DNA from: a virus
Length of the DNA stretch: 22,188 nt
IMG/VR virus record: IMGVR_UViG_3300040807_001282
Location: 1-22,188 of that record
Direction: 5' to 3' (one strand)
The notes under the pieces were generated by a model, which did no database searches, was not told where the DNA came from, and was given only the letters and a program-made list of their open reading frames with translations. Positions 1 to 14,626 of the stretch are shown piece by piece. Every line of letters begins with the position of its first letter. Position 1 is the stretch's first letter. The translations under genes and the position numbers were made by a program.

Positions 1-953
1 ATGGAGCTAAAGTTTATTTTGACCCAGTGGCTACAGCTAACTGGGTCAATCAGCTCGATAAAGGTGATAACAGAGTTCACTTTGAATATCATGGTGGTGA
101 GCCTATGCTTGCTCCTACTAAAGACCTATTTGATTTTTTCTTTAGAACATTTGATGTTTGGGAAAATAGAGCAACATATGGTATTACAACAAATCTCACT
201 TACAAATTAACAGAAGACAGATTAGACTTTTTTGATCATGTTATGGATGATGGTCGAATTGGTACTTCTTGGGATCCTACAATTCGCTTCGCAAATGAAA
301 AACAACGAAAGCTTTGGGAAGATAACGTTAAAGAATTAGTAAGTAAAGGTTTCCATTTAAAAGCTTTTATATCATTATCTAAAGACGTTGTCAATATGTC
401 ACCAAGGTTTATTACAGATTATATGATGAATCTTGGTATTAAAGAACTTTCTTGGGAACGTATTACTGGAAATGGTAATGCTTTATTATATGGTGATAAG
501 TTATATCCAACAAATAAAGAGTTGCAAGACTTCTTTATGAGATGTCATACAGAATGTGCAGATTTAAGAGGAGAATTTGAAGATGTCTTCATGGAAACAG
601 TCTATAACAAATTTGAAAAAGGACTCTTACACCAAGGAACGTTTTGCAGAGACTGTGAACAAAAATTATTTACGATTAATGCGACTGGTACTATTGCTGG
701 CTGCCCTAACGCTGCTCCTACCGATTATTATGGCCATATTAATCAATCAGTAGATGAAGTAATAAATACACCTAAGAGGGGAGAAGTTATAGCAAAAGAA
801 CTCTTCTTAAGAGATCCTCGCTGTTATACTTGCCCAGTCTTTGGATATTGCGGATCTGATTGCCACCAACTTGAATGGCAAGACGATGTTTGTCCAGCCC
901 CTAAAACTTTGATGATGGAATTATTGAATGGAATTAATCATAAAGCCCACTGA
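1..953 (+). CDS. Radical SAM/SPASM protein 1 (5' partial)
   Basis: Probable radical S-adenosylmethionine enzyme with a C-terminal SPASM domain, which in this family binds two auxiliary [4Fe-4S] clusters. The frame is open from base 3, so the true start and the CxxxCxxC cluster motif should lie left of the window. A GTG at 27 would drop conserved sequence and is unlikely to be the start. What is visible is the radical SAM GGEP motif (HGGEPML, near base 100) and, between about 650 and 890, a textbook SPASM pattern: C-X10-G-X4-C, then C-X2-C-X5-C-X3-C, then a last Cys. SPASM enzymes commonly modify peptides or proteins, for example in RiPP maturation or sulfatase activation, but the substrate here is unknown. 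The next gene starts 26 bases inside this one, which suggests translational coupling. Confidence 0.85.
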   Translation, partial: GAKVYFDPVATANWVNQLDKGDNRVHFEYHGGEPMLAPTKDLFDFFFRTFDVWENRATYGITTNLTYKLTEDRLDFFDHVMDDGRIGTSWDPTIRFANEKQRKLWEDNVKELVSKGFHLKAFISLSKDVVNMSPRFITDYMMNLGIKELSWERITGNGNALLYGDKLYPTNKELQDFFMRCHTECADLRGEFEDVFMETVYNKFEKGLLHQGTFCRDCEQKLFTINATGTIAGCPNAAPTDYYGHINQSVDEVINTPKRGEVIAKELFLRDPRCYTCPVFGYCGSDCHQLEWQDDVCPAPKTLMMELLNGINHKAH

Positions 954-1980
954 GGCATGTAACTTTAAATGTACTTTCTGTTCATCAACTAACATTGATC
1001 CAAAGAAAGCAAAGTTACTTGATCACGATTATATTTTTAAATTTCTAAAACGTTATCCTGAAACTAACACCATTATTGTAAATGGTGGAGATCCACTTAT
1101 GGTGGAACCTGATTACTATTGGAAAATTATTGATCATCTTGATGAACATAATTATCGTGCTAATATTAGTTTTACTACTAATCTTTGGCCTTTTGTAATT
1201 AAACCACAAAAATGGATTGATTTATTTCGTCATGAACGTATGGGAATTTGTACAAGTTTCCAATACGGTAAAGGTAGATTAAAAGGTGATTTTACTATTT
1301 TTACTGAAAAGGATTTTTGGAGAGCATCTGATATGATGCTTGATCTCGTTGGTTATAGACCAGACTTTATTGCTGTAATGACAGATGAAGACGCACCAGA
1401 TGCTATTCGTAATGTGGAACTTGCAAAAGAAATGAATGTCGAATGTAAGTTAAATTATGCTATGGCTTCTGGAGTACAAGGATCCACATATCGTTTAAGT
1501 AAGATCTATGAAACATATATAGAAATATACGATAGAGGTCTTTGGAAATGGGAATACAATACAAAACAAATGATGAAAAGGCTGCATGGTAATGCGACGT
1601 CTTGCCCGCAAAATAGAAGGTGTGATGAACATATCCGCGCTTTTAATCCTGGAGGTGATTATTATTCTTGCGGCTCTTTCGGTGATGATGGCGATTATCC
1701 TATCGATTTTGAATATGAATTAAATGGTGGTAAAGCAACACCTTTGCAAGATGATTTTAATATTCAAACAATGAAAAACGCTTGTTGGACTTGCCCAATG
1801 TTTGAAATTTGTAATGGTTGCAAAAAGACTGTACGTGATATGAAACGTGAAGGTATTACTGAAGCTCATTGTAAACATATGAAAACTTTAGCACCTCGCA
1901 TTCTTGAAATTAACGGGTTAGATCCTAATAGTGTAACCCCATATGTGAATGAGGAAGAAGATGTTCTCTGTATCAATTAA
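928..1980 (+). CDS. Radical SAM/SPASM protein 2
   Basis: 350-residue radical SAM enzyme. The CX3CX2C motif that binds the catalytic [4Fe-4S] cluster is at Cys11, Cys15 and Cys18, only ten residues from the start, so the ATG at 928 is well supported even though it lies inside the upstream gene and has only a weak GGA upstream. The GGDP version of the GGEP motif is at 53-56. The C-terminal third has SPASM-type cysteines: C-X10-G-X4-C, then C-X2-C-X5-C-X2-C and a final Cys in TEAHC. One spacing is C-X2-C where the usual SPASM pattern has C-X3-C. It is flanked by two other radical SAM genes and overlaps both. The reaction and substrate cannot be read from sequence. Peptide or protein modification is the best guess from the family. 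Confidence 0.88.
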   Translation: MELIIKPTEACNFKCTFCSSTNIDPKKAKLLDHDYIFKFLKRYPETNTIIVNGGDPLMVEPDYYWKIIDHLDEHNYRANISFTTNLWPFVIKPQKWIDLFRHERMGICTSFQYGKGRLKGDFTIFTEKDFWRASDMMLDLVGYRPDFIAVMTDEDAPDAIRNVELAKEMNVECKLNYAMASGVQGSTYRLSKIYETYIEIYDRGLWKWEYNTKQMMKRLHGNATSCPQNRRCDEHIRAFNPGGDYYSCGSFGDDGDYPIDFEYELNGGKATPLQDDFNIQTMKNACWTCPMFEICNGCKKTVRDMKREGITEAHCKHMKTLAPRILEINGLDPNSVTPYVNEEEDVLCIN

Positions 1981-2884
1981 TCCCACCTACTTTTGTAATT
2001 TTAATTGCGATTTTTGTTATTTAAGCAAAGAGCAATTACGTGATAGACAAACAGCTTCTATCGAAACGATTATGAAACGATTAAATGAAATAAATGAAAC
2101 AATTACACATATAGATCTATACGGTGGAGAGGTTGGATTATTACAAGACGATTATCTAAATGAATTAATTGATAGTATTAAAGCAGAATATAATCCAACA
2201 ATTTCTATTATTACAAATCTTTCTGCAATCCGTGAAGTATTTTTAAGACCAGATATTGATTTATCTGTGTCATATGATTTTGATGCACGAGAAAAAGAAA
2301 TGACTGTATTTACTAATATGTTAAAGCTGAACAGGCCGTTTTCAGTATTAACATTAGCATCAGAAAAAGTTATTAATAATGATGTAGATTATATGATTAA
2401 TATGTTTAATTCTTTGACTAATTTAATTGCTGTAGAGATTAAACCATTTAGTTCTACTACACACCGTACACAATATGTTACTGATTTGCAATATGAAGAG
2501 TTTATTAAAGAGTGGATTGATAGTCCAATTCCAAAAAATTGGTTGTTTATTAATCAAGATAAAATTGAGGAGTGCCTAGATGGAAATTATAATGCTTTTA
2601 GCGATAATCATGTTTATATTACTCCTAGCGGTAATTTTGCTGTACTGGATTTTGATTTATTGGGAAATGAAAGTTTTACAGAGCTCGATACTTTCGATGC
2701 ATATCTATCTTGGGCAAATAGAGAAAAGCAGTCAGGAGTCAGTGACATCTGCAAACAATGTAAATACTTCGGCGGATGCTTAACGGAGCATTATAAGTAT
2801 GTCGCGTTTGATCCAAAAATAAATGGTTGTAACGGTTATTTTAATCTACTAGAATGGTACAATGAAGAGCCAGTACGAGTATAG
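1961..2884 (+). CDS. Radical SAM protein 3 with degenerate SPASM region
   Basis: 307-residue radical SAM protein. Start chosen at the ATG at 1961 because AGGA lies five bases upstream; an in-frame ATG at 1949 has no such site and would add four residues. The cluster motif is Cys12, Cys16, Cys19 (CNFNCDFC) and a GGE motif follows in YGGEVG. The C-terminal part keeps C-X2-C-X5-C (CKQC then Cys in the GGC triplet) and a later Cys. The first SPASM pair is missing: the segment aligned by eye to C-X10-G-X4-C reads VYITPSGNFAVLD, and the fourth cysteine of the second set is replaced by His. It may therefore hold one auxiliary cluster, or none in the normal form. It overlaps its neighbours by 20 and 23 bases. 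Substrate unknown. Confidence 0.83.
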   Translation: MFSVSINPTYFCNFNCDFCYLSKEQLRDRQTASIETIMKRLNEINETITHIDLYGGEVGLLQDDYLNELIDSIKAEYNPTISIITNLSAIREVFLRPDIDLSVSYDFDAREKEMTVFTNMLKLNRPFSVLTLASEKVINNDVDYMINMFNSLTNLIAVEIKPFSSTTHRTQYVTDLQYEEFIKEWIDSPIPKNWLFINQDKIEECLDGNYNAFSDNHVYITPSGNFAVLDFDLLGNESFTELDTFDAYLSWANREKQSGVSDICKQCKYFGGCLTEHYKYVAFDPKINGCNGYFNLLEWYNEEPVRV

Positions 2885-3608
2885 AGTTCAATATGAACAG
2901 CAATATAGTAGAAATCTTGAGCCAGAATTAAGAACTGCTGAAGATGGTCACAGATATGCTATGTTTGTAAAAGGAAATACTTTTAATGTTGGTGGAAGAA
3001 CATATATATTCAAAGATCATTTAGGACAATATGTTAGTACTTTTGTAAGTCAATATTCTGATATTATAGATAATAATTTAGAGCCGGGCGTTAAAGATGC
3101 TGTACTTGCCTTACACGAAAAAGGTTATTTAACTTATACATCTTGCCAAGGACATGATGATTCTAAACACAGATATATTGGTGTAGTATTCAATACTAAT
3201 GAGCAAAAAAGAAAATTTATCAGAGAAGTAAACAAACTCAAGTGTGATATATATTGGTATGACCACGCAATAAATACGGTTGAAAGACCACAAACAAGCA
3301 TACCTTGGTGGTCAGACGCTATAAAATTGCATATTGTTTATAATGATAATTCTTTTGCTAATTCGGCAGTTGTTGACAGAAGAGATAAACCATACACAGA
3401 TGAAGAATTAACTAAATTTTGGAATATTCAAATGTGTAGAAACTACAATTATTACGAATCAATAATTTTGTGTTTTGGTTATCCTATGGTTGAAAAAAAC
3501 TTGTGGGAAAAAATTAAAAAGATATTTTTCTATAATCATTATAAAGTAACTAGTGCATATTTTAATTTTTTAAATAAAGTCAATCAATTACCGGAGTATG
3601 AGAATTAA
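2862..3608 (+). CDS. Unrecognised protein with SCQGH motif
   Basis: 248-residue protein that I cannot assign to a characterised family. It starts at an ATG inside the end of the third radical SAM gene (23-base overlap) with no clear Shine-Dalgarno sequence, which fits coupled translation. The most conserved-looking part is the middle: a helix-like segment GVKDAVLALHEKGYLTYT followed by SCQGHDD, then YIGVVF and a lysine-rich helix. Similar Ser-Cys-x-Gly-His segments occur in uncharacterised phage proteins as far as I recall. The Cys/His pair could bind a metal or be catalytic, but this is speculation. No signal peptide or membrane segment is seen. The aromatic C-terminal third has no recognisable domain. 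Its place between radical SAM and oxygenase genes suggests a role in the same process. Confidence 0.7.
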   Translation: MKSQYEYRVQYEQQYSRNLEPELRTAEDGHRYAMFVKGNTFNVGGRTYIFKDHLGQYVSTFVSQYSDIIDNNLEPGVKDAVLALHEKGYLTYTSCQGHDDSKHRYIGVVFNTNEQKRKFIREVNKLKCDIYWYDHAINTVERPQTSIPWWSDAIKLHIVYNDNSFANSAVVDRRDKPYTDEELTKFWNIQMCRNYNYYESIILCFGYPMVEKNLWEKIKKIFFYNHYKVTSAYFNFLNKVNQLPEYEN

Positions 3609-3609
3609 A

Positions 3610-4020
3610 ATGAAAGAATGGAAAGTTAGACAGCAGTATTTCGATATGATGAATCCAGATGCAGACTGGAAAGATGATTTAAACAAAGTAGATATCGTAG
3701 AAGTTGATGCTATGGATATTATTCCCGAAGCAATTCGACATTTTGAAGAGCATGTACCAGAATGGGTTTATCCATCTAAGTCTTATGTGGTAGCAATTTG
3801 TTATGCACATTGGATATCTCAAGATTTCGACGAAGATTTTTACGAAACATTAGCAGATCCAGAATTACTTCCCCACGATCCATATTTTGTTCCATATGAA
3901 GATGATAAACAAACATACGATGAAATTATTGAGGCAGTAACTCCAATTGATATGATTGGTATGGTACCAGATATTTACGAATATTATAGAGAAGAAATTC
4001 TGGAGTCTTTGATTGAATGA
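3610..4020 (+). CDS. Small acidic hypothetical protein
   Basis: 136-residue protein, rich in Asp and Glu along its whole length, with no recognised domain, signal peptide or membrane segment. The start at 3610 gives a TAA-A-ATG junction with the upstream gene, the same one-base spacing found at two later junctions in this run. An in-frame ATG at 3598 is possible, but the GGAG at 3593-3596 would be only one base away from it. The middle reads as a mixture of aromatic and acidic segments (SYVVAICYAHW, then repeated Asp/Glu/Tyr). The stop overlaps the next start as ATGA, so translation is probably coupled to the first oxygenase gene. Possible roles are a partner or substrate of the neighbouring enzymes; nothing in the sequence decides this. 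Confidence 0.65.
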   Translation: MKEWKVRQQYFDMMNPDADWKDDLNKVDIVEVDAMDIIPEAIRHFEEHVPEWVYPSKSYVVAICYAHWISQDFDEDFYETLADPELLPHDPYFVPYEDDKQTYDEIIEAVTPIDMIGMVPDIYEYYREEILESLIE

Positions 4021-4529
4021 ATTATGAAAAATTACAAATAGACGGTTATGACCATTTTAACGACCCACGCGTTTTTACTTATTTAGAATGGTTTTATAAA
4101 ACTCCTTTTATGATTACTTATCAAGGAGTAAAATATCCGATTACTTATTGGCCTATAGGTGTATGGCTTTTAAGAATGACGCAGAAAAAAATAGACGAAT
4201 TAATATTATCAGATGAGCTTTGCACATTTGGTAATGTGGATGCTTGGAGAGGTATAGATAATAAAACTGATGTGTGGCATACAGATCACATTGAAGGATC
4301 TAATCTTGCATTTCTCATGTATCTTACAGATATGGATGAATCTACTGGTGGTGGTATCCAAATTAAAAGAGCAAATTCATCCAATTATGCTACAATATAT
4401 CCTAAGAAATATGATATTGTTGTTTTGAATCAAAACGGCGATCAATTTAGACATAAAGTTATAAACTTAAAACAACCAATAAATAGAGATGTAGCAAATA
4501 TAGAATTTAATATTATGGAAAGGCTATAA
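4017..4529 (+). CDS. 2-oxoglutarate/Fe(II) oxygenase-like protein 1
   Basis: 170-residue protein of the double-stranded beta-helix oxygenase type related to prolyl 4-hydroxylases. The family couples oxidation of a substrate to decarboxylation of 2-oxoglutarate using an Fe(II) centre. The expected residues can be picked out: His88-x-Asp90 (WHTDH) as the first two iron ligands, His146 (FRHKV) as the third, and Arg157 as a plausible 2-oxoglutarate carboxylate ligand. Between them lie the typical YLTD...TGGG turn (102-113) and the strand before His146 (YDIVVLN). It is short for the family, so substrate-binding additions are minimal. It shares ATGA with the gene before and is followed by TAA-C-ATG of a second oxygenase. 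Substrate unknown; protein residue or small molecule hydroxylation are both possible. Confidence 0.78.
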   Translation: MNYEKLQIDGYDHFNDPRVFTYLEWFYKTPFMITYQGVKYPITYWPIGVWLLRMTQKKIDELILSDELCTFGNVDAWRGIDNKTDVWHTDHIEGSNLAFLMYLTDMDESTGGGIQIKRANSSNYATIYPKKYDIVVLNQNGDQFRHKVINLKQPINRDVANIEFNIMERL

Positions 4530-4530
4530 C

Positions 4531-5244
4531 ATGGATAATACAAATATTATAAAAATCCATCCTACACATATTCTAGTTAAAGAAATTCCATTTACAGACG
4601 AAGAAATGGATGAGCTGCGAGTTTGTGCAAAAGCAACGTGGACAGGCTATTACGAGCAAGGATTAGATAGTCATGACTATCAATGTAATTCCGATCCTTT
4701 TCCTCTTTTTACAAAAGAAAATTTAAATATTTTTCCAATTTTAGGTAAATTAAAAAATGAATTTGAAAAAGGCTTTTATGAATTGGCCATTTCTCACGAG
4801 GGAAATACATTAACAAGAGAACAAATTTCACACATGGTTGCTCAACAGCATGGGCAAATGCCAATTATGCAACAAGGTGATCTAATTGCGTTACATACAC
4901 ATCCTGGATCATTAGCTTATGGTATTTTTTATTTAGATGACGTTGATAATGAAAAAGATGGTGGTATACTTCAATTGTGGGATCCTTCATTCCATGTGAA
5001 TGCTGGCATGAGAAATCCACAAATTTATGAAGTGGATACTGTAGCTAGGAGATTAGTAATTGTGCCAACATACATTTGGCATAATGTTACACAATATTAT
5101 GGAAAATCTGAAAGAATTTCTGTTATTTGTAATTTGTCAATTCATCCAGATTTTGAAAGAGTTTTAACATATAGTGGTGTACAGGAAAACGGTGCATTTA
5201 CTGACAAAACAAAAGGTTCTGGATTTGATCCAGCGGCGGTGTAA
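4531..5244 (+). CDS. 2-oxoglutarate/Fe(II) oxygenase-like protein 2 (HxH type)
   Basis: 237-residue oxygenase-like protein with the layout of the phage/bacterial group known as 2OG-FeII_Oxy_5 (TIGR02466-like). The core reads His122-Thr-His124-Pro, a GIFYLDD strand, a GG...WDPS segment, VPTYIWH with His184 as distal ligand, and Arg195 in SERIS as likely co-substrate ligand. The first motif is HxH where the standard oxygenase triad has HxD; to my knowledge HxH is usual in this group and is not by itself a sign of inactivation. The start has AAAGG seven bases upstream and follows the previous stop by one base. A roughly 100-residue N-terminal part precedes the core and has no recognised motif. 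Substrate unknown. Confidence 0.78.
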   Translation: MDNTNIIKIHPTHILVKEIPFTDEEMDELRVCAKATWTGYYEQGLDSHDYQCNSDPFPLFTKENLNIFPILGKLKNEFEKGFYELAISHEGNTLTREQISHMVAQQHGQMPIMQQGDLIALHTHPGSLAYGIFYLDDVDNEKDGGILQLWDPSFHVNAGMRNPQIYEVDTVARRLVIVPTYIWHNVTQYYGKSERISVICNLSIHPDFERVLTYSGVQENGAFTDKTKGSGFDPAAV

Positions 5245-5245
5245 T

Positions 5246-5806
5246 ATGGAATATAAAGATTTATGGCCTACGACAGTAGGGTTTGGAAAATTTGATTCTG
5301 TGGAATTATCTCAGTATATTCTTATGAATTACGATATGAGCAATCCTCCTAGTGATATGCAAGGTAAAAACATTTTTAACGATCATACATCATATATGCA
5401 AAAATTTCAAAATGATGTTTATGGTGCTTTTAATAATTATTTAACACATACTATTGGTAAAAAGATTAGTGATTGGAAATATCATGAAATGAAAGCTTGG
5501 ATTACTGGGCATGATTATGAATATAATATGACTATTCATAATCACTCTGGTGCTCATTTATCTGGTGTATTTTATGTTTTAGCCGAAGATCAAAAATCTG
5601 GTGGCGATATTGTATTTTCTGATCCAAGAAGCAACGCTAATAGAGGTTATGACGAATATTTTGATCCTATGTTTGATAGACTTATTCACAGACCGCAAAC
5701 TGGTGATTATATGATTTTTCCAAGTTTCACGTATCATCATGTAAATCCATATTATTCAAATCTTAGAATTTGTGTTCCGGTTGATCTTTATTTGTACAGA
5801 GGTTAA
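5246..5806 (+). CDS. 2-oxoglutarate/Fe(II) oxygenase-like protein 3 (HxH type)
   Basis: 186-residue protein of the same 2OG-FeII_Oxy_5-like group as its neighbour. The start at 5246 places LWPTTVGFGKF at the N terminus, as this group usually begins, and gives a TAA-T-ATG junction. An upstream in-frame ATG at 5174 would add 24 unlikely residues overlapping the gene before. Visible core: His98-Asn-His100, HLSGVFYVL, SGGDIVFSDPRS, the strand DYMIFPS, His164/His165 and Arg174. The match to the group's consensus is better here than in protein 2. It is the last gene of the left run; a strong late promoter follows its stop. The two HxH proteins are probably distant paralogues and may act on related substrates. 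Confidence 0.83.
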   Translation: MEYKDLWPTTVGFGKFDSVELSQYILMNYDMSNPPSDMQGKNIFNDHTSYMQKFQNDVYGAFNNYLTHTIGKKISDWKYHEMKAWITGHDYEYNMTIHNHSGAHLSGVFYVLAEDQKSGGDIVFSDPRSNANRGYDEYFDPMFDRLIHRPQTGDYMIFPSFTYHHVNPYYSNLRICVPVDLYLYRG

Positions 5807-5885: not shown

Positions 5886-6305
5886 ATGGCTCTAACACTT
5901 ACATATTCTGTTACTAATCTTAAAGTAAAAGATCAAGTAAACAGCGAAGGTACAACTCTTTCCAATGCAGTTTGTCAAACATACTGGAAAGTTGTTGGTG
6001 AAGACGAAAACGGCAATCAAGCAGATTGGGCCGGTGCAACTCCTTTTACAGCTGAAAATGTCCCAGCTGCATCATTTATTTCTTTTGATGATCTAGTAGA
6101 AGAAGATGTTCTTGGTTGGATTAAAGCCGTAGTAGACGGTGATCCTACTTATAAAGCTCATATCATTGATCAGCTACAAAGAAAAATCGATCAAGATGCT
6201 GCTCGTGATGCAACAATGCCTTGGGCGCCTGATGTAACACCGCCGGCACCTGAAGTTGGTGAGGCTGATCCAAATGTAGCCGATCCAGTAGACCCAGAAG
6301 CATAA
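5886..6305 (+). CDS. Small phage protein, tandem paralogue A
   Basis: 139-residue protein of a family I associate with uncharacterised small proteins of marine T4-like phages (possibly the DUF7936 type; from memory, not checked). It begins with beta-rich TLTYSVTNLKV, then a conserved-looking NSEG, a WK strand, DENGNQADWAGATPF, a PAASFISF segment and EDVLGWIKAVV. It ends in a long tail rich in Pro, Glu, Asp and Ala. GGAGAAA sits six bases before the ATG, and the gene is the first after the TATAAATA box at 5811, so late expression is likely. The next gene encodes a shorter relative lacking the acidic proline-rich tail. A virion or assembly role is plausible from late expression only. Confidence 0.75.
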   Translation: MALTLTYSVTNLKVKDQVNSEGTTLSNAVCQTYWKVVGEDENGNQADWAGATPFTAENVPAASFISFDDLVEEDVLGWIKAVVDGDPTYKAHIIDQLQRKIDQDAARDATMPWAPDVTPPAPEVGEADPNVADPVDPEA

Positions 6306-6321
6306 GTAGAGGAATTCTATC

Positions 6322-6651
6322 GTGAATTATACCTGGAAAATAATGAACTTAGGTACAATGGATGAATTGAATTCTGAAGGCGAAGTTCTTCCGAATTCGA
6401 TTGTTTCTGTTCGCTGGAAGAAAATTGCTACAGATACAGATGGATCTACTGCAACATATCTAGGTAAAACAACACTAACTGCTGCAAATACACCAGCATC
6501 AGAATTTATTAATTTTAATAGTGTATCTCAAGATACTGTGCTCGAATGGGTTCAAAACTCTTTAGGTCCTGCCGAGATAAATACAATTAATAAAATATTA
6601 GAGAAGAAGATACAAGAAGGCAAAGTTAGAAAACAAACACCTAATTGGTAA
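6322..6651 (+). CDS. Small phage protein, tandem paralogue B
   Basis: 109-residue paralogue of the preceding protein. Shared positions include the N-terminal NL segment, NSEG (residues 13-16), a WK strand, DG followed by an aromatic and G-x-T, the TAAN-PASEFI-F block and VLEWVQ. The start is GTG at 6322, supported by AGAGGA at 6308-6313 with eight bases to the start; no ATG gives the conserved N terminus. It ends with a basic helix (NKILEKKIQEGKVRKQ) where copy A continues into an acidic proline-rich tail, so the two copies differ strongly in C-terminal charge. Only 16 bases separate the genes. Function unknown; duplication with divergence is clear. Confidence 0.75.
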   Translation: MNYTWKIMNLGTMDELNSEGEVLPNSIVSVRWKKIATDTDGSTATYLGKTTLTAANTPASEFINFNSVSQDTVLEWVQNSLGPAEINTINKILEKKIQEGKVRKQTPNW

Positions 6652-6682: not shown

Positions 6683-7717
6683 ATGCACGACTTGTTTATG
6701 GGTGGACTAGCGACTTATGCTTTAAAAAGAGGTGGTACTCTTCATCCTGTTTTACTACCAAAATCAGTACTAGGAAACGAAACTGGGATTATGAATCCTT
6801 CCATTTTTATTGACGATGGAAGGATTCTTCTCAATATTCGTCATGTCAATTATATCCTTTATCACAGTGAAGGTAAAAGGTTTCCACATCAGTGGGGACC
6901 GCTTGTTTATATTCATCCAGAAAATGACGTAACTCTAAGAACTCACAATGTAATGTGTGAGCTTGATGAGAATTTAAATCTTTTAGATGCTGGTAGAGTT
7001 AACATGGTTTTGGATACAGAACCAACTTGGAACTTTATTGGTTTAGAAGATGCTCGTTTATTTAAATGGGATGATAAACTTTATCTTTGTGGTGTTCGTA
7101 GAGATTGCTATGATAATAAAGGCACCGGTAGAATGGAACTCTGCCATATTCATAAAACTGAAAATGGTTGGGAAGAAATTTCGCGTCATCCTATTCCAGC
7201 ACCCGGAGAAGATAATAGCTTCTGCGAGAAAAACTGGATGCCAATTTTAGATAAACCATATCATTTTGTAAAATGGTGTAATCCTATTCAAGTTGTTAAA
7301 TACAATATTGAAGAAGGAACAACAGAAGTTGTTTTTGAGAATGAAGGTGAAAGAGCTCCTTTCGATAAAGACTTTAGAGGCGGATCTCAAGTATTGAGAA
7401 TTAATGAAAACCAGTATATGGCTTTTATTCATGAAACAAATCTTTTAAGAGATCCTTTTGGCCGTAAAGATGGAGACTATTCTCATCGTGTTCTAATTTG
7501 GGACAATGATTGGAATTTAATTCACGCATCTAAAAAATTCCATTTCCTTGGTACATATTACGATCATGTAACTAATACCGATTATAATATTGAATTTGTT
7601 ACTGGTGCTACTGTACTAAATAATGACATTCTAATTTCGTTTGGTTTTCAAGATAATGCTTCATTTATTCTCAGAATTCCATTAAACGTATTTTATGATT
7701 TTTTAACTAAAGGTTGA
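6683..7717 (+). CDS. GH130-like beta-propeller glycosidase/phosphorylase
   Basis: 344-residue protein resembling the five-bladed beta-propeller glycosidase and mannosyl-phosphorylase group (GH130 and relatives), which cleave or phosphorolyse mannosides and related sugars. Typical blade motifs occur in order: NPSIF (38-42), GLEDARLF (120-127), CEKNWMP (181-187), RGGSQ (232-236), and a late FVTGATVL...ILISFGFQD block. In the family the EDAR acidic residue region and the basic residues near RGGSQ line the active site. Length fits a single propeller with no signal peptide, so it acts in the cytoplasm or in a virion. GGAG at 6674-6677 is five bases before the ATG. It heads a three-gene sugar-related run, so host glycan or virion glycan processing is the likely job. 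Exact activity cannot be assigned. Confidence 0.72.
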   Translation: MHDLFMGGLATYALKRGGTLHPVLLPKSVLGNETGIMNPSIFIDDGRILLNIRHVNYILYHSEGKRFPHQWGPLVYIHPENDVTLRTHNVMCELDENLNLLDAGRVNMVLDTEPTWNFIGLEDARLFKWDDKLYLCGVRRDCYDNKGTGRMELCHIHKTENGWEEISRHPIPAPGEDNSFCEKNWMPILDKPYHFVKWCNPIQVVKYNIEEGTTEVVFENEGERAPFDKDFRGGSQVLRINENQYMAFIHETNLLRDPFGRKDGDYSHRVLIWDNDWNLIHASKKFHFLGTYYDHVTNTDYNIEFVTGATVLNNDILISFGFQDNASFILRIPLNVFYDFLTKG

Positions 7718-7721
7718 TTAC

Positions 7722-8963
7722 ATGCTAGCTCTTACACAATGTTTAAAAGATGTAGTTTATGATTTTGATAATCCTGAAAAACTATATGCTCTTGGTAAAG
7801 AATATGATAAATTAGAACAAGGGGCTGGTGCTTTTAGTTGGTATCTTAGAGCAGCAGATTTTGCTGATGGATTGACATGGTCGTCTCGTTGGATTCAGTA
7901 TAAGTCAATGATTCTAGGTGCGTTTATTTACCAACGAAATGGTAATAGAGATCATAGTGTTGAAGGTCTTTTAAAAATTGCGATTGAAACAATGCCCGAA
8001 AGACCTGAAGCTTATTACTTTCTTTCTAAATTTAAACAAGAAAGAAATGATTGGCGCGAAAGTTTAATGTATGCCCGCATTGGTGTAAATATTATTGATG
8101 AAGAAGAAACTTCTCCTCCAGATAATGATTTAGGTTATCCTGGAGATAATGCATTACGTTTATTATATGCTCGTGCTAAATGGAAAACAGATGGTCGAGA
8201 TGATTCTAAAAATCTTGCGTTTGATTTAAAATACAAAAGAAAATTAACACCACAATTAGATAAAGAAGTTACAGAACTCTTATCACAGCACGGTTATCCA
8301 AGCACTTTAAAATACACATATGGTGATGATGAGTGGTATAAATTTAAATTTGATGGAATTGAAGATATAGAACAAAACTATTCTCGTCATTTCCAAGATA
8401 TGTTTGTATTATCTGCTCTTAATGGTAAAGAAAATGGTACATTTATAGAGATTGGATCTGGGCATCCAGAACTTTTCAATAATACAAAACTTCTTGAAGA
8501 AGATTTTGGATGGAAAGGTTTATCTATTGACAACTCAGAAAGAATGTGTTATGAGTTTTCAAGAAAAAGAAAAACACCAGTGATGTGTGCTGATGGTTCT
8601 CAATTGGATTATAAACAAGTATTTAAACAACATTGTTTTGAACAACAAATAGAGTTCCTCAGAATTAATGCAGAAAAAGCTTCATTAGAAGTATTGAAGA
8701 AAATTCCGTTTAAAGTGCACGAGTTTGAAGTAATTCAATTCCAACACAATGCATGTTGGTGGGGACCTGAGTTTAGAAATGCTTCTAGAAAAATACTTAG
8801 TGAAATCGGATATATATTATTAGTACCGGATGTTGCAGTAAGCCCAGTTGAAAATTATGAAGATTGGTGGGTTCACCCAAATGTTGCTAAAAAACATCCA
8901 GAAATGAAACCTAAAAAGAAATTCAATTTTGCTTGGGATTATATGATGAAGGAGTTAACATGA
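7722..8963 (+). CDS. Repeat domain fused to FkbM-type methyltransferase
   Basis: 413-residue two-part protein. The first about 200 residues are helical and TPR-like (repeated A-x-x-x-Y-x-x-A and W-x-L-R-A-A patterns; MPERPEAYYFLSKF...YARIGV), similar to repeats attached to phage and bacterial glycosyltransferases. The second half is a class I SAM-dependent methyltransferase of FkbM type: FIEIGSGHP at about 241-249 is the SAM-binding loop, followed by NNTKLLEEDFGWKGLSID, the FkbM signature in which an acidic residue ends strand beta2. FkbM enzymes usually O-methylate sugars or polyketides. It follows the GH130-like gene by four bases with AAAGG before the ATG, and its stop overlaps the next start as ATGA. 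Methylation of a phage-associated or host glycan is the likely role, inferred from family and context. Confidence 0.78.
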   Translation: MLALTQCLKDVVYDFDNPEKLYALGKEYDKLEQGAGAFSWYLRAADFADGLTWSSRWIQYKSMILGAFIYQRNGNRDHSVEGLLKIAIETMPERPEAYYFLSKFKQERNDWRESLMYARIGVNIIDEEETSPPDNDLGYPGDNALRLLYARAKWKTDGRDDSKNLAFDLKYKRKLTPQLDKEVTELLSQHGYPSTLKYTYGDDEWYKFKFDGIEDIEQNYSRHFQDMFVLSALNGKENGTFIEIGSGHPELFNNTKLLEEDFGWKGLSIDNSERMCYEFSRKRKTPVMCADGSQLDYKQVFKQHCFEQQIEFLRINAEKASLEVLKKIPFKVHEFEVIQFQHNACWWGPEFRNASRKILSEIGYILLVPDVAVSPVENYEDWWVHPNVAKKHPEMKPKKKFNFAWDYMMKELT

Positions 8964-9715
8964 AAGCAGTTATCGTAACTGGCGGTTTTGATCCACTTCA
9001 CTCAGGTCATATCGCATACTTTAAAGCAGCCAAAGAGCTTGGATCTATTCTATTTGTAGGTGTAAATAGTGATGAATGGTTGACTCGTAAAAAGGGTCGT
9101 CCATTTATGCCAGCTGAAGAGCGTATGGCAATTATCAAAGAGATTGGTTGTGTTGGTCACGTATTCCAATTTGACGATTCAGATGATACTGCAATCGATG
9201 CTATTAAATACGTAAAAAATTATGTACCAAATAATACACCAATTGTTTTTGCAAATGGTGGTGATCGTACTAAAGACAATATTCCTGAAATGGTTTTTGA
9301 TGATGTCGAATTTGTGTTTGGCGTTGGTGGCGAAGATAAAAAGAATAGTTCTTCATGGATTCTATCTAATTGGGATAAACCAACTACTCAAAGACTATGG
9401 GGTAAATACAGAGATCTTGATGCTAATGGCCATTGGAAAGTAAAAGAACTTTCTATTGATATGGGTAAATCTTTATCTGATCAAAAACATTTTAAAAGAT
9501 CTGAGCATTGGCACATTGTTGATGGTGATCTACAAATGGATCTTGAATTTGCAAATGGTTACAAGACTTCTAAAGTTTATAAAACTGGCGAAAGTATTGA
9601 CATTCCAAAACTTGCATGGCATAAAGCAACCAATGTTGGTTCTGCTCCAGTTAAAGTAATTGAAGTTTGGATGGGATCTGAATTATCAGAAGAAGACATT
9701 GAAAGAAGATCTTAA
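8960..9715 (+). CDS. Nucleotidyltransferase-cupin fusion (cytidylyltransferase-like + ManC-type cupin)
   Basis: 251-residue bifunctional-looking protein. Residues 1-140 are a cytidylyltransferase-like domain: GGFDPLHSGH (8-17) holds the HxGH nucleotide-binding motif, and KNSSSWIL near the end of the domain matches the position of the ISSTxI-like motif. Residues 145-251 resemble the C-terminal cupin of mannose-6-phosphate isomerase/ManC proteins: RLWGKYR, an LSDQKHFKRSEHWHIVDG block with His177, Glu182 and His183 as metal-ligand candidates, IPKLAWHKATN, then VIEVWMGSELSEEDIER. The family pairing suggests activation of a sugar phosphate or alditol phosphate to an NDP-sugar plus isomerisation or sugar binding. 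GGAG at 8951-8954 fixes the ATG at 8960, which overlaps the previous stop. Substrate cannot be named. Confidence 0.82.
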   Translation: MKAVIVTGGFDPLHSGHIAYFKAAKELGSILFVGVNSDEWLTRKKGRPFMPAEERMAIIKEIGCVGHVFQFDDSDDTAIDAIKYVKNYVPNNTPIVFANGGDRTKDNIPEMVFDDVEFVFGVGGEDKKNSSSWILSNWDKPTTQRLWGKYRDLDANGHWKVKELSIDMGKSLSDQKHFKRSEHWHIVDGDLQMDLEFANGYKTSKVYKTGESIDIPKLAWHKATNVGSAPVKVIEVWMGSELSEEDIERRS

Positions 9716-13582: not shown

Positions 13583-14626
13583 ATGGCACAAACGCTACAA
13601 CATAGAAGAGGAACCACTGCCCAGATAGCTCCACAAACTGGAACTATTGGTGAGATTCTTATTGATACAACAAAAAATACTGTAGTTGTAATGGACGGCT
13701 CTACTATTGGTGGTACTCCACTTGCAAAAGAGTCTGATATTCCTACTGCAGTTTCTCAACTAACAAATGATTCTGGTTACTTTACAATCGGTTATTGGAA
13801 TACGGTTAAATTTAGTAAAGATTATAATGATCTTACTAATAAGCCAACATTATTTAGTGGTGCATACGCAGATCTAACTGGCAAACCAACATTATTTAGT
13901 GGCGCATATGCAGATCTAACAGGTAAGCCTACAACTGTTTCATCTTTTACAAATGATTCTGGTTATTTAACAACAGTATCATTTGCTGATTTAACAGGAA
14001 AACCAACAACAATTTCTGGATACGGTATTACTGACGCATTCGATGGACAATATTCATCGTTAACCGGCTCTCCAACCATTCCAGCTGATGTTGCCGATTT
14101 AACAGATAATACAAATCTATTAGATCATTTTAGTGGTGCATACGGCGATCTAACTGGTGCACCCACAATTCCAGCTGATGTTGCAGATTTAACAGACACA
14201 ACAAATTTATTAACTCAAAACATTTTTGATCAGAGTTTGAATAGTGCTAATAACGTAGTATTTGCAAACGTTGATACAAATTATGTTTATGGTAATGGTC
14301 TTGGTTTAGAAATTTCAGGTGGTAGAAATACTTCTGGGGCAGGTGGTACACTTACTATTGTGGGTGGTACTTCCACTGGCGCAAAAGGTGGAGATCTCGT
14401 AATTGACGCAGGGCCAGGAGCAGGCGGTAATATTGGAGATATTTTATTTGGATCTGCATATCCTACAGATATATACATTGGCACTACAGGTGGCACAACA
14501 GACCTCGCTGGAACTATAAATGTTTCTGGCACTTTAACAGGTTATATTAGTATTGCTACATTACAAAGTGTAGCTGCTTCTGCAAACACATATGCTGAAT
14601 TTGCTGCTGCTATTGCTGCATTATAA
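13583..14626 (+). CDS. Tail-fibre-like repeat protein
   Basis: 347-residue fibre-like protein. It begins with LQHRRGTTAQIA followed by GEILIDTTKNTVVVMDGS, the small N-terminal attachment fold common to phage fibres and Mtd-like proteins. The middle (about 75-210) is made of collagen-free fibre repeats: YxDLTGKPT occurs several times, NDSGYFT/NDSGYLT twice, and a 17-residue PTIPADVADLTD unit twice. The C-terminal part is Gly/Thr-rich (SGGRNTSGAGGTLTIVGGTSTG), probably beta-helical, and ends with an AAASAN...AAIAAL helix. Such proteins form trimeric fibres or head whiskers and often bind hosts. AGGA lies ten bases before the ATG. In T4 no gene lies between 15 and 16, so this is an insertion in the block. 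Confidence 0.78.
   Translation: MAQTLQHRRGTTAQIAPQTGTIGEILIDTTKNTVVVMDGSTIGGTPLAKESDIPTAVSQLTNDSGYFTIGYWNTVKFSKDYNDLTNKPTLFSGAYADLTGKPTLFSGAYADLTGKPTTVSSFTNDSGYLTTVSFADLTGKPTTISGYGITDAFDGQYSSLTGSPTIPADVADLTDNTNLLDHFSGAYGDLTGAPTIPADVADLTDTTNLLTQNIFDQSLNSANNVVFANVDTNYVYGNGLGLEISGGRNTSGAGGTLTIVGGTSTGAKGGDLVIDAGPGAGGNIGDILFGSAYPTDIYIGTTGGTTDLAGTINVSGTLTGYISIATLQSVAASANTYAEFAAAIAAL
13847..13930 (+). repeat. Two tandem 42-base repeats in the fibre gene
   Basis: Two adjacent 42-base units encode the same 14 residues (TLFSGAYADLTGKP) and differ mainly at third codon positions. This indicates an in-frame duplication, old enough for silent change but held constant at protein level, or recent exchange between units. 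Confidence 0.85.
14072..14212 (+). repeat. Paired 51-base repeats in the fibre gene
   Basis: Two 17-codon units (14072-14122 and 14162-14212) encode PTIPADVADLTD followed by N/T-TNLL. They are separated by a DHFSGAYGDLTGA linker that belongs to the other repeat type, so the two repeat families are interleaved. Confidence 0.8.

Follow-up and report, generated by a model that had tools for sequence, protein, structure and literature searches.

A putative RiPP-like radical SAM and oxygenase cassette of phages and its candidate substrate, the Cys-His repeat tail of a protein encoded beside filament genes

Introduction

The virus record IMGVR_UViG_3300040807_001282 of IMG/VR, analysed here at its complete length of 22,188 bases (the window), opens with a run of eight closely spaced genes encoding radical SAM enzymes (rSAM), Fe(II)/2-oxoglutarate (2OG) oxygenases and proteins without assigned function. 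What does such an enzyme set modify? To our knowledge, radical SAM enzymes are not known to act on virions. A first-pass annotation of the window had proposed a single multi-step modification, with the virion proteins encoded just downstream, or a host surface sugar, among its candidate targets. Here, by following the run beyond the edge of the window and across other phages, bacterial chromosomes and plasmids, we arrive at a different candidate.

Results

The run comprises the following genes, the first of which is truncated by the edge of the window.

1..953, plus strand: R1, radical SAM/SPASM enzyme, 3' part (ORF 3-953, 5' end outside the window; SPASM match)
928..1980, plus strand: R2, radical SAM/SPASM enzyme (PF04055, phrog_1802)
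1949..2884, plus strand: R3, radical SAM enzyme with a short (twitch-like) second cluster domain (PF04055, phrog_1802)
2862..3608, plus strand: U4, accessory protein without assigned function (13 of 35 loci)
3598..4020, plus strand: U5 (phrog_20737), core protein without assigned function (recurrence, AF2 model)
4017..4529, plus strand: OX6, Fe(II)/2OG oxygenase-like (HxD...H)
4531..5244, plus strand: OX7, 2OG-FeII_Oxy_5 oxygenase (PF13759)
5246..5806, plus strand: OX8, 2OG-FeII_Oxy_5 oxygenase, the final cassette gene in this phage (PF13759)

The earlier reading of positions 1 to 5806 as three radical SAM proteins, two unknowns and three 2OG oxygenases in tight packing is borne out by the ORF list and by family searches, and the overlaps, ATGA junction and one-base-gap junctions that it described are present in the ORF coordinates. 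R1 and R2 overlap by 26 bases, R2 and R3 by 32 (20 if the ATG at 1961 is the R3 start), R3 and U4 by 23, and U4 and U5 by 11 (a one-base gap if U5 starts at 3610, the start used by its relatives); the start of OX6 overlaps the stop of U5 (ATGA, 4017-4020), and single-base gaps lie 5' of both OX7 and OX8. The run is followed by tandem DUF7936 genes, glycan-type genes and T4-like structural genes (tail-sheath stabiliser, neck, terminase). Measured against a relative (locus L006), cassette genes are under purifying selection, with dN/dS values of ~0.08 for R2, ~0.085 for R3, 0.16 for U5, 0.14 for OX6, 0.40 for OX7 and 0.15 for OX8, a set from which U4 (dS saturated) and R1 were left out. We have almost no doubt that these genes form a conserved, functional cassette rather than a series of chance ORFs.

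R1 exceeds the cut-off of the NCBIfam SPASM model TIGR04085 (30.9 bits against 27) and matches phrog_1802 (E = 8e-46); R2 and R3 score above the PF04055 cut-off (E = 3e-9 and 4e-9) and likewise match phrog_1802. The CX3CX2C motif is found in R2, R3 and complete copies of R1, eight extra SPASM-type cysteines are conserved in R1 and R2 (fewer in R3 and in R20, a further family of the wider cassette), and the radical SAM cysteines are at least 93% conserved in the R1, R2, R3, R6, R20 and B12-rSAM families. Motif, PF04055 match and SPASM cysteines together place these enzymes in the radical SAM superfamily (SPASM group). OX7 and OX8 belong to the Fe(II)/2OG oxygenases by profile (PF13759, above cut-off, E = 4e-9 and 1e-13) and OX6 by its metal triad, HxD...H, which is present even though its PF13640 score falls below threshold (24.9 of 27 bits). 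Oxygenase ligands are also at least 93% conserved across cassettes, in the patterns HxD...H...R (OX6), HxH...H...R (OX5) and H.D...H (cupin), and the JmjC-like cupin is probably an Fe(II) oxygenase too. R1 aligns over its full length with the peptide maturases PapB, DarE and DynA, with scores far under their cut-offs, and the B12-rSAM of the cassette is nearest to KedN5-type methyltransferases.

The run does not stand alone. A second contig, L001, matches 12,434 bases of the window at 99.94% identity and extends it upstream, adding in order a tail fibre-like gene (matching phrog_19602), F9, F7, F12, the radical SAM gene R6, a B12-type radical SAM gene, a cupin gene and the complete R1 (348 aa, L001 8980-10026), of which the window holds residues 33-348. 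On this alignment the window run is the 3' (second) half of a larger conserved enzyme cassette.

Searching IMG/VR with R2 returned 30 loci, and R1, R2, R3 and U5 co-occur in ~30 other phage loci. R2, R1 and U5 each matched an identical set of seven phage records, every one from a jumbo phage (Burkholderia FLC6, FLC8 and SURPRISE13; Agrobacterium Atu_ph07, with two records; Sinorhizobium Phosso; Pseudomonas pPa_SNUABM_DT01), and the copies there sit in clusters with several rSAM genes; R2, the most conserved cassette gene, is 53-59% identical to its jumbo-phage copies. The cassette is carried by marine T4-like phages, jumbo phages and Bdellovibrionota chromosomes, the Bdellovibrionota copies forming one group among the phages in the R2 tree (support 91/74). 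Its core across loci consists of R1, R2, R3, R6, U5, F7 and F9, with the cupin in most phages, while F12, R20, the B12-rSAM, OX-type oxygenases and U4 (a minority gene) vary; added genes include a tryptophan halogenase (L015, L026), DHFR genes (FLC6) and NifU/IscA Fe-S assembly genes (L023). The stretches of Atu_ph07 and Phosso examined contain R1, R2, R3, U5, the cupin and the F9 tail, but no oxygenase of the OX6-OX8 type was recognised in them; these three are variable accessories. Co-conservation in related phages had been set beforehand as the point on which the idea of a coupled module could fail, and the module stays together in very distant phages. The proposal that both enzyme classes belong to one multi-enzyme module also holds up: the cupin, a probable oxygenase, accompanies R1 in most phage cassettes, and the coupling of radical SAM and oxygenase enzymes therefore seems to be general.

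The likely target of the cassette is encoded upstream, outside the window.

L001 2407-2967, upstream of the window: F9, small protein and likely substrate, recognised by its C-terminal tail and its place in the same gene run

The last residues of F9 (median length 185 aa) before the stop codon read CHxSCHxSCHxSRGRR or a closely similar sequence, and nearly every complete cassette encodes an F9. Among the R2-selected loci that span the F9 position, which reveal the tail independently of any motif pattern, all but L023 encode a protein with this ending (R1, F7 and R6 are present in L023, with no recognisable tail protein); the tail of L028 lacks RGRR and that of L066 has four repeats. Aligning 50 diverse F9s shows no variation at the six Cys/His positions and almost none at the arginines, against a mean column identity of ~30-32%. 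A motif scan of IMG/VR found at least 115 loci with the tail exactly at a stop codon, and cassette genes are visible within a few kb in 112 of the 115 listed, the other three being short fragments. These loci were selected by their Cys, His and Arg letters, and not by C-terminal placement, neighbourhood or the Ser and Gly positions; the Ser/Asn positions and the glycine of RG, which the search pattern does not fix, are ~90% conserved. Many of the 88 genome matches of the same scan were discarded as chance occurrences that are not C-terminal.

A ribosomal precursor with a conserved core beside its maturases is one mark of a RiPP system, and the F9 tail is invariant, C-terminal and adjacent to the cassette; annotation of the cassettes turned up neither a leader peptidase nor a recognition domain resembling an RRE. 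From this pattern we think it very probable that the F9 tail is the substrate of the cassette. The virion proteins encoded just downstream of the run, one of the candidates named at first, are probably not the target, as the DUF7936, glycan-type and neck genes are either confined to close relatives or part of the standard virion complement, and comparison of loci ruled out the DUF7936 pair, the glycan-type genes and the T4 neck genes as members of the system; a host surface sugar found no support.

The remaining proteins gave few leads. Pfam, PHROGs and NCBIfam searches returned no informative match for U4, F7 and F12 (none at all for U4), U5 matched only the uninformative phrog_20737 in PHROGs, and F9 has no NCBIfam match. 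Profiles of F9, F7 and U5 found nothing credible in a sequence search of the PDB, nor did an AF2 model of U5 (pLDDT 92) find a PDB match with Foldseek and VIA-align; a fold model of F9 (pLDDT 72) matched only uncharacterised viral proteins in BFVD, its Atu_ph07 counterpart included.

The gene immediately 5' of the cassette points towards a filament: among 71 distinct proteins encoded there, 55 match phrog_19602 (tail fibre), 58 phrog_22593, 14 Peptidase_G2 and 7 collagen. For Atu_ph07, mass spectrometry assigned most virion proteins to clusters, one of them CDS 170-215 (PMC6102473). The F9 of this phage is gp170 (CDS 170), the first of that cluster, which suggests that F9 may be part of the virion particle; the F9 of FLC6 is gp72.

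In Bdellovibrionota, where F9 was found in 11 of the 129 genomes searched within the class, the cassette is embedded among chromosomal genes. All nine genomes with F9 and a Peptidase_S74 gene on one contig have such a gene no more than 15 kb from F9, although the genomes measure 2.5-4.2 Mb and give 2-13 S74 matches each. Most of the S74 proteins so placed are chimeras with prepilin-like N-termini, adjoining a conserved ~195-aa protein and a ~120-aa Tat-like protein. Similarity of the ~195-aa protein to the phage fibre end (hhalign probability 33%) is only suggestive of homology. The tails here vary (CHSSHSSHSSHSSRGRR, CHSNHCSHSNHGSRGRR and CHGNFPPPCHGSRGRR), retaining the His residues and terminal RGRR and losing the Cys of the inner repeats, to the point where CHSSHSSHSSHSSRGRR has one Cys only; since His and RGRR persist and inner-repeat Cys does not, we infer that His may lie at the centre of the chemistry.

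The same ending occurs on Pseudomonas megaplasmids, where a type IV pilus operon runs directly into several rSAM genes and a gene for a small tail-bearing protein with a signal-peptide-like N-terminus, which ends in GYCHNACHGACHGACHGSRGWR in Rms139 and GYCHSACHGACHGACHGARGWR in pQBR103. The F9 profile scores 14.0 bits on this protein with its tail and -0.3 without; as the carrier is otherwise unrelated to F9, the tail has the look of a modular target. The plasmid rSAMs are distant (~24% identity to R1). Pilus and rSAM genes are also found on a Vibrio plasmid, but no CH tail appears in the 19 kb of it that were examined.

Discussion

Gene content, co-conservation, tail invariance, C-terminal placement and neighbourhood are established here at the level of sequence. 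Drawing on these, we propose, with a probability of roughly 70%, that a RiPP-like cassette modifies the F9 tail and that the product is displayed on a host-contacting filament. The substrate would be the C-terminal tail of F9, (CHxS)3-RGRR; the radical SAM/SPASM enzymes R1, R2, R3 and R6, joined in some phages by R20 or a B12-rSAM, would act on its repeated Cys-His-x-Ser units, as would the Fe(II)/2OG or cupin oxygenases, with F7, F12 and U5 as putative substrate-handling partners. The likeliest products may be crosslinks between side chains together with hydroxylations, with His, Cys and Ser at their centre, a detail of the model that we offer only tentatively; and because enzyme content differs so much between cassettes, one fixed chemistry is unlikely. 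The modified F9 would then be displayed on, or at the tip of, the tail fibre encoded by the adjacent gene, and such filament display of the finished protein seems to us reasonably probable. The same tail may be put to use next to pilus/fibre chimeras in Bdellovibrionota and next to a type IV pilus on Pseudomonas megaplasmids.

The tail might instead be left unmodified, as the metal-binding tip of a trimeric fibre, and the enzymes would then act on another substrate, such as the adjacent fibre shaft. Repeats of Cys and His readily serve as metal ligands, T4 gp37 has iron-binding HxH motifs, collagen is a classic 2OG hydroxylase substrate (7 of the 71 neighbouring proteins being collagen-like), and the OX genes vary independently of the F9 tail. 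We nevertheless judge this unlikely: the tail keeps company with a multi-rSAM cassette in nearly all the motif loci listed (112/115), it is also borne by the unrelated plasmid carrier protein, and one-Cys Bdellovibrionota tails such as CHSSHSSHSSHSSRGRR would be odd for a fixed metal site. An assembly of several rSAMs, 2OG oxygenases, a B12-rSAM and an occasional halogenase does resemble natural-product sets, and F9 could on that basis be the precursor in a conventional RiPP pathway whose small molecule or released peptide (a toxin, antimetabolite or signal) has no filament role. Yet the annotated cassettes contain no recognisable gene for a protease, a transporter or immunity, F9 is large with its tail at the extreme C-terminus, and fibre and pilus genes are constantly nearby, all of which makes a released product decidedly improbable.

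Phage radical SAM and oxygenase genes for DNA modification exist, and R3 gives a partial match to viperin, such that the enzymes might hypermodify phage DNA or nucleotides, or R3 might make nucleotide analogues. This we consider very improbable indeed, given that the match to the viperin model NF038283 (41.6 bits against a cut-off of 180) covers the radical SAM core only, on which count R3 was rejected as a viperin, that R1 and R2 carry SPASM-type cysteines typical of peptide maturases, and that the cassette is also found in bacterial chromosomes beside pilin-like genes.

How, then, does modification and display of the F9 tail compare with systems already described? The His-Xaa-Ser (Hxs) system, with its protein HxsA and maturases HxsB and HxsC, shares C-terminal His/Ser repeats and paired radical SAM/SPASM enzymes, and the Bdellovibrionota tail CHSSHSSHSSHSSRGRR holds true His-x-Ser repeats; the cassette differs in its extra Cys, terminal RGRR, oxygenases and fibre context. 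Hxs membership was rejected, all three models remaining below cut-off: the highest HxsA score among all genomes and records tested is 14.9 of 121.65 bits, R1 reaches 34.8 of 370 bits against HxsB and R2 27.7 of 268 against HxsC. Proteusin/polytheonamide RiPP pathways apply several rSAMs, a B12-rSAM and a 2OG hydroxylase to a ribosomal precursor, a set mirrored in the cassette; here, however, F9 has no match among NCBIfam models, no export or cleavage gene was recognised, and the candidate target forms the terminus of a larger protein whose gene adjoins that of a fibre. Chimeric fibre (MAT) proteins of Bdellovibrio with an S74 chaperone serve prey recognition (PMC10769870), and cassette-bearing Bdellovibrionota have an S74 fibre protein nearby, but radical SAM genes go unmentioned in that paper, and most cassette-side S74 proteins are prepilin-like at the N-terminus and come with the cassette. 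The Pseudomonas megaplasmids (pQBR103, pQBR57, IncP-2) combine the pilus operon, several rSAM genes and the same C-terminal tail, with enzymes only distantly related to R1; the pairing of an rSAM cluster with a type IV pilus on them has been described with its function left unclear, and the passages of those papers that were consulted describe neither the tail nor a phage link (PMC4989453, PMC7070040, PMC13391042). The earlier surmise that no phage system with this layout has been described still stands, in that neither a described system nor the tail motif strings were found in the open-access literature searched, a scope outside which subscription papers and most preprints lie. Within it, and with none of the named systems tested (Hxs, viperin) fitting, the cassette is apparently undescribed.

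If our proposal is true, many marine and jumbo phages chemically remodel a protein of the apparatus that contacts the host with up to ~nine radical SAM enzymes, while something very similar takes place next to the pili of predator-type bacteria and Pseudomonas megaplasmids. As the same tail occurs with related or similar enzymes beside pilus genes, this may be a new way of preparing the parts with which cells are gripped; that phages, Bdellovibrionota and conjugative plasmids share one mechanism, in which multi-radical-SAM enzymes make an unusual, perhaps adhesive or metal-binding, gripping tip for a filament, we would put at slightly short of even odds. The F9 tail peptide, CHSSCHASCHNSRSRR, offers a direct target for mass spectrometry. 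The same proposal, if true, would also answer a question stated as open in PMC7070040, namely why a radical SAM cluster is conserved with the type IV pilus on Pseudomonas megaplasmids.

The following features lie in the window and in related cassettes at other viral loci from IMG/VR (L-numbers).

Window 5886-6651: downstream of the cassette, a pair of DUF7936 (phrog_7802) proteins encoded in tandem
Window 6683-9715: glycan-type genes for a 344-aa protein, a 413-aa protein and a cytidylyltransferase-cupin fusion
Window 13583-14626: a tail protein carrying the Major tropism determinant N-terminal domain (PF18454)
L015:14841-16133: flavin-dependent tryptophan halogenase gene within the phage cassette (PF04820, E 7e-87)
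L026:13154-14506: flavin-dependent tryptophan halogenase gene within the phage cassette (PF04820, E 5e-76)
L009:7482-19838, and also L068: roughly nine radical SAM genes gathered in one phage cassette (families R1, R2, R3 and R6, plus five R20)
L023:13068-14078: NifU/IscU-like gene and two IscA-like Fe-S assembly genes, after the gene for the core protein U5 (phrog_20737) in the phage cassette

The tandem DUF7936 pair is retained in close relatives, and the glycan-type genes are restricted to them; neither the 344-aa nor the 413-aa protein has a match in Pfam, and the latter, judged by eye, appears FkbM-like. We read the gene content of L023 as a phage-borne Fe-S supply adjoining the radical SAM enzymes.
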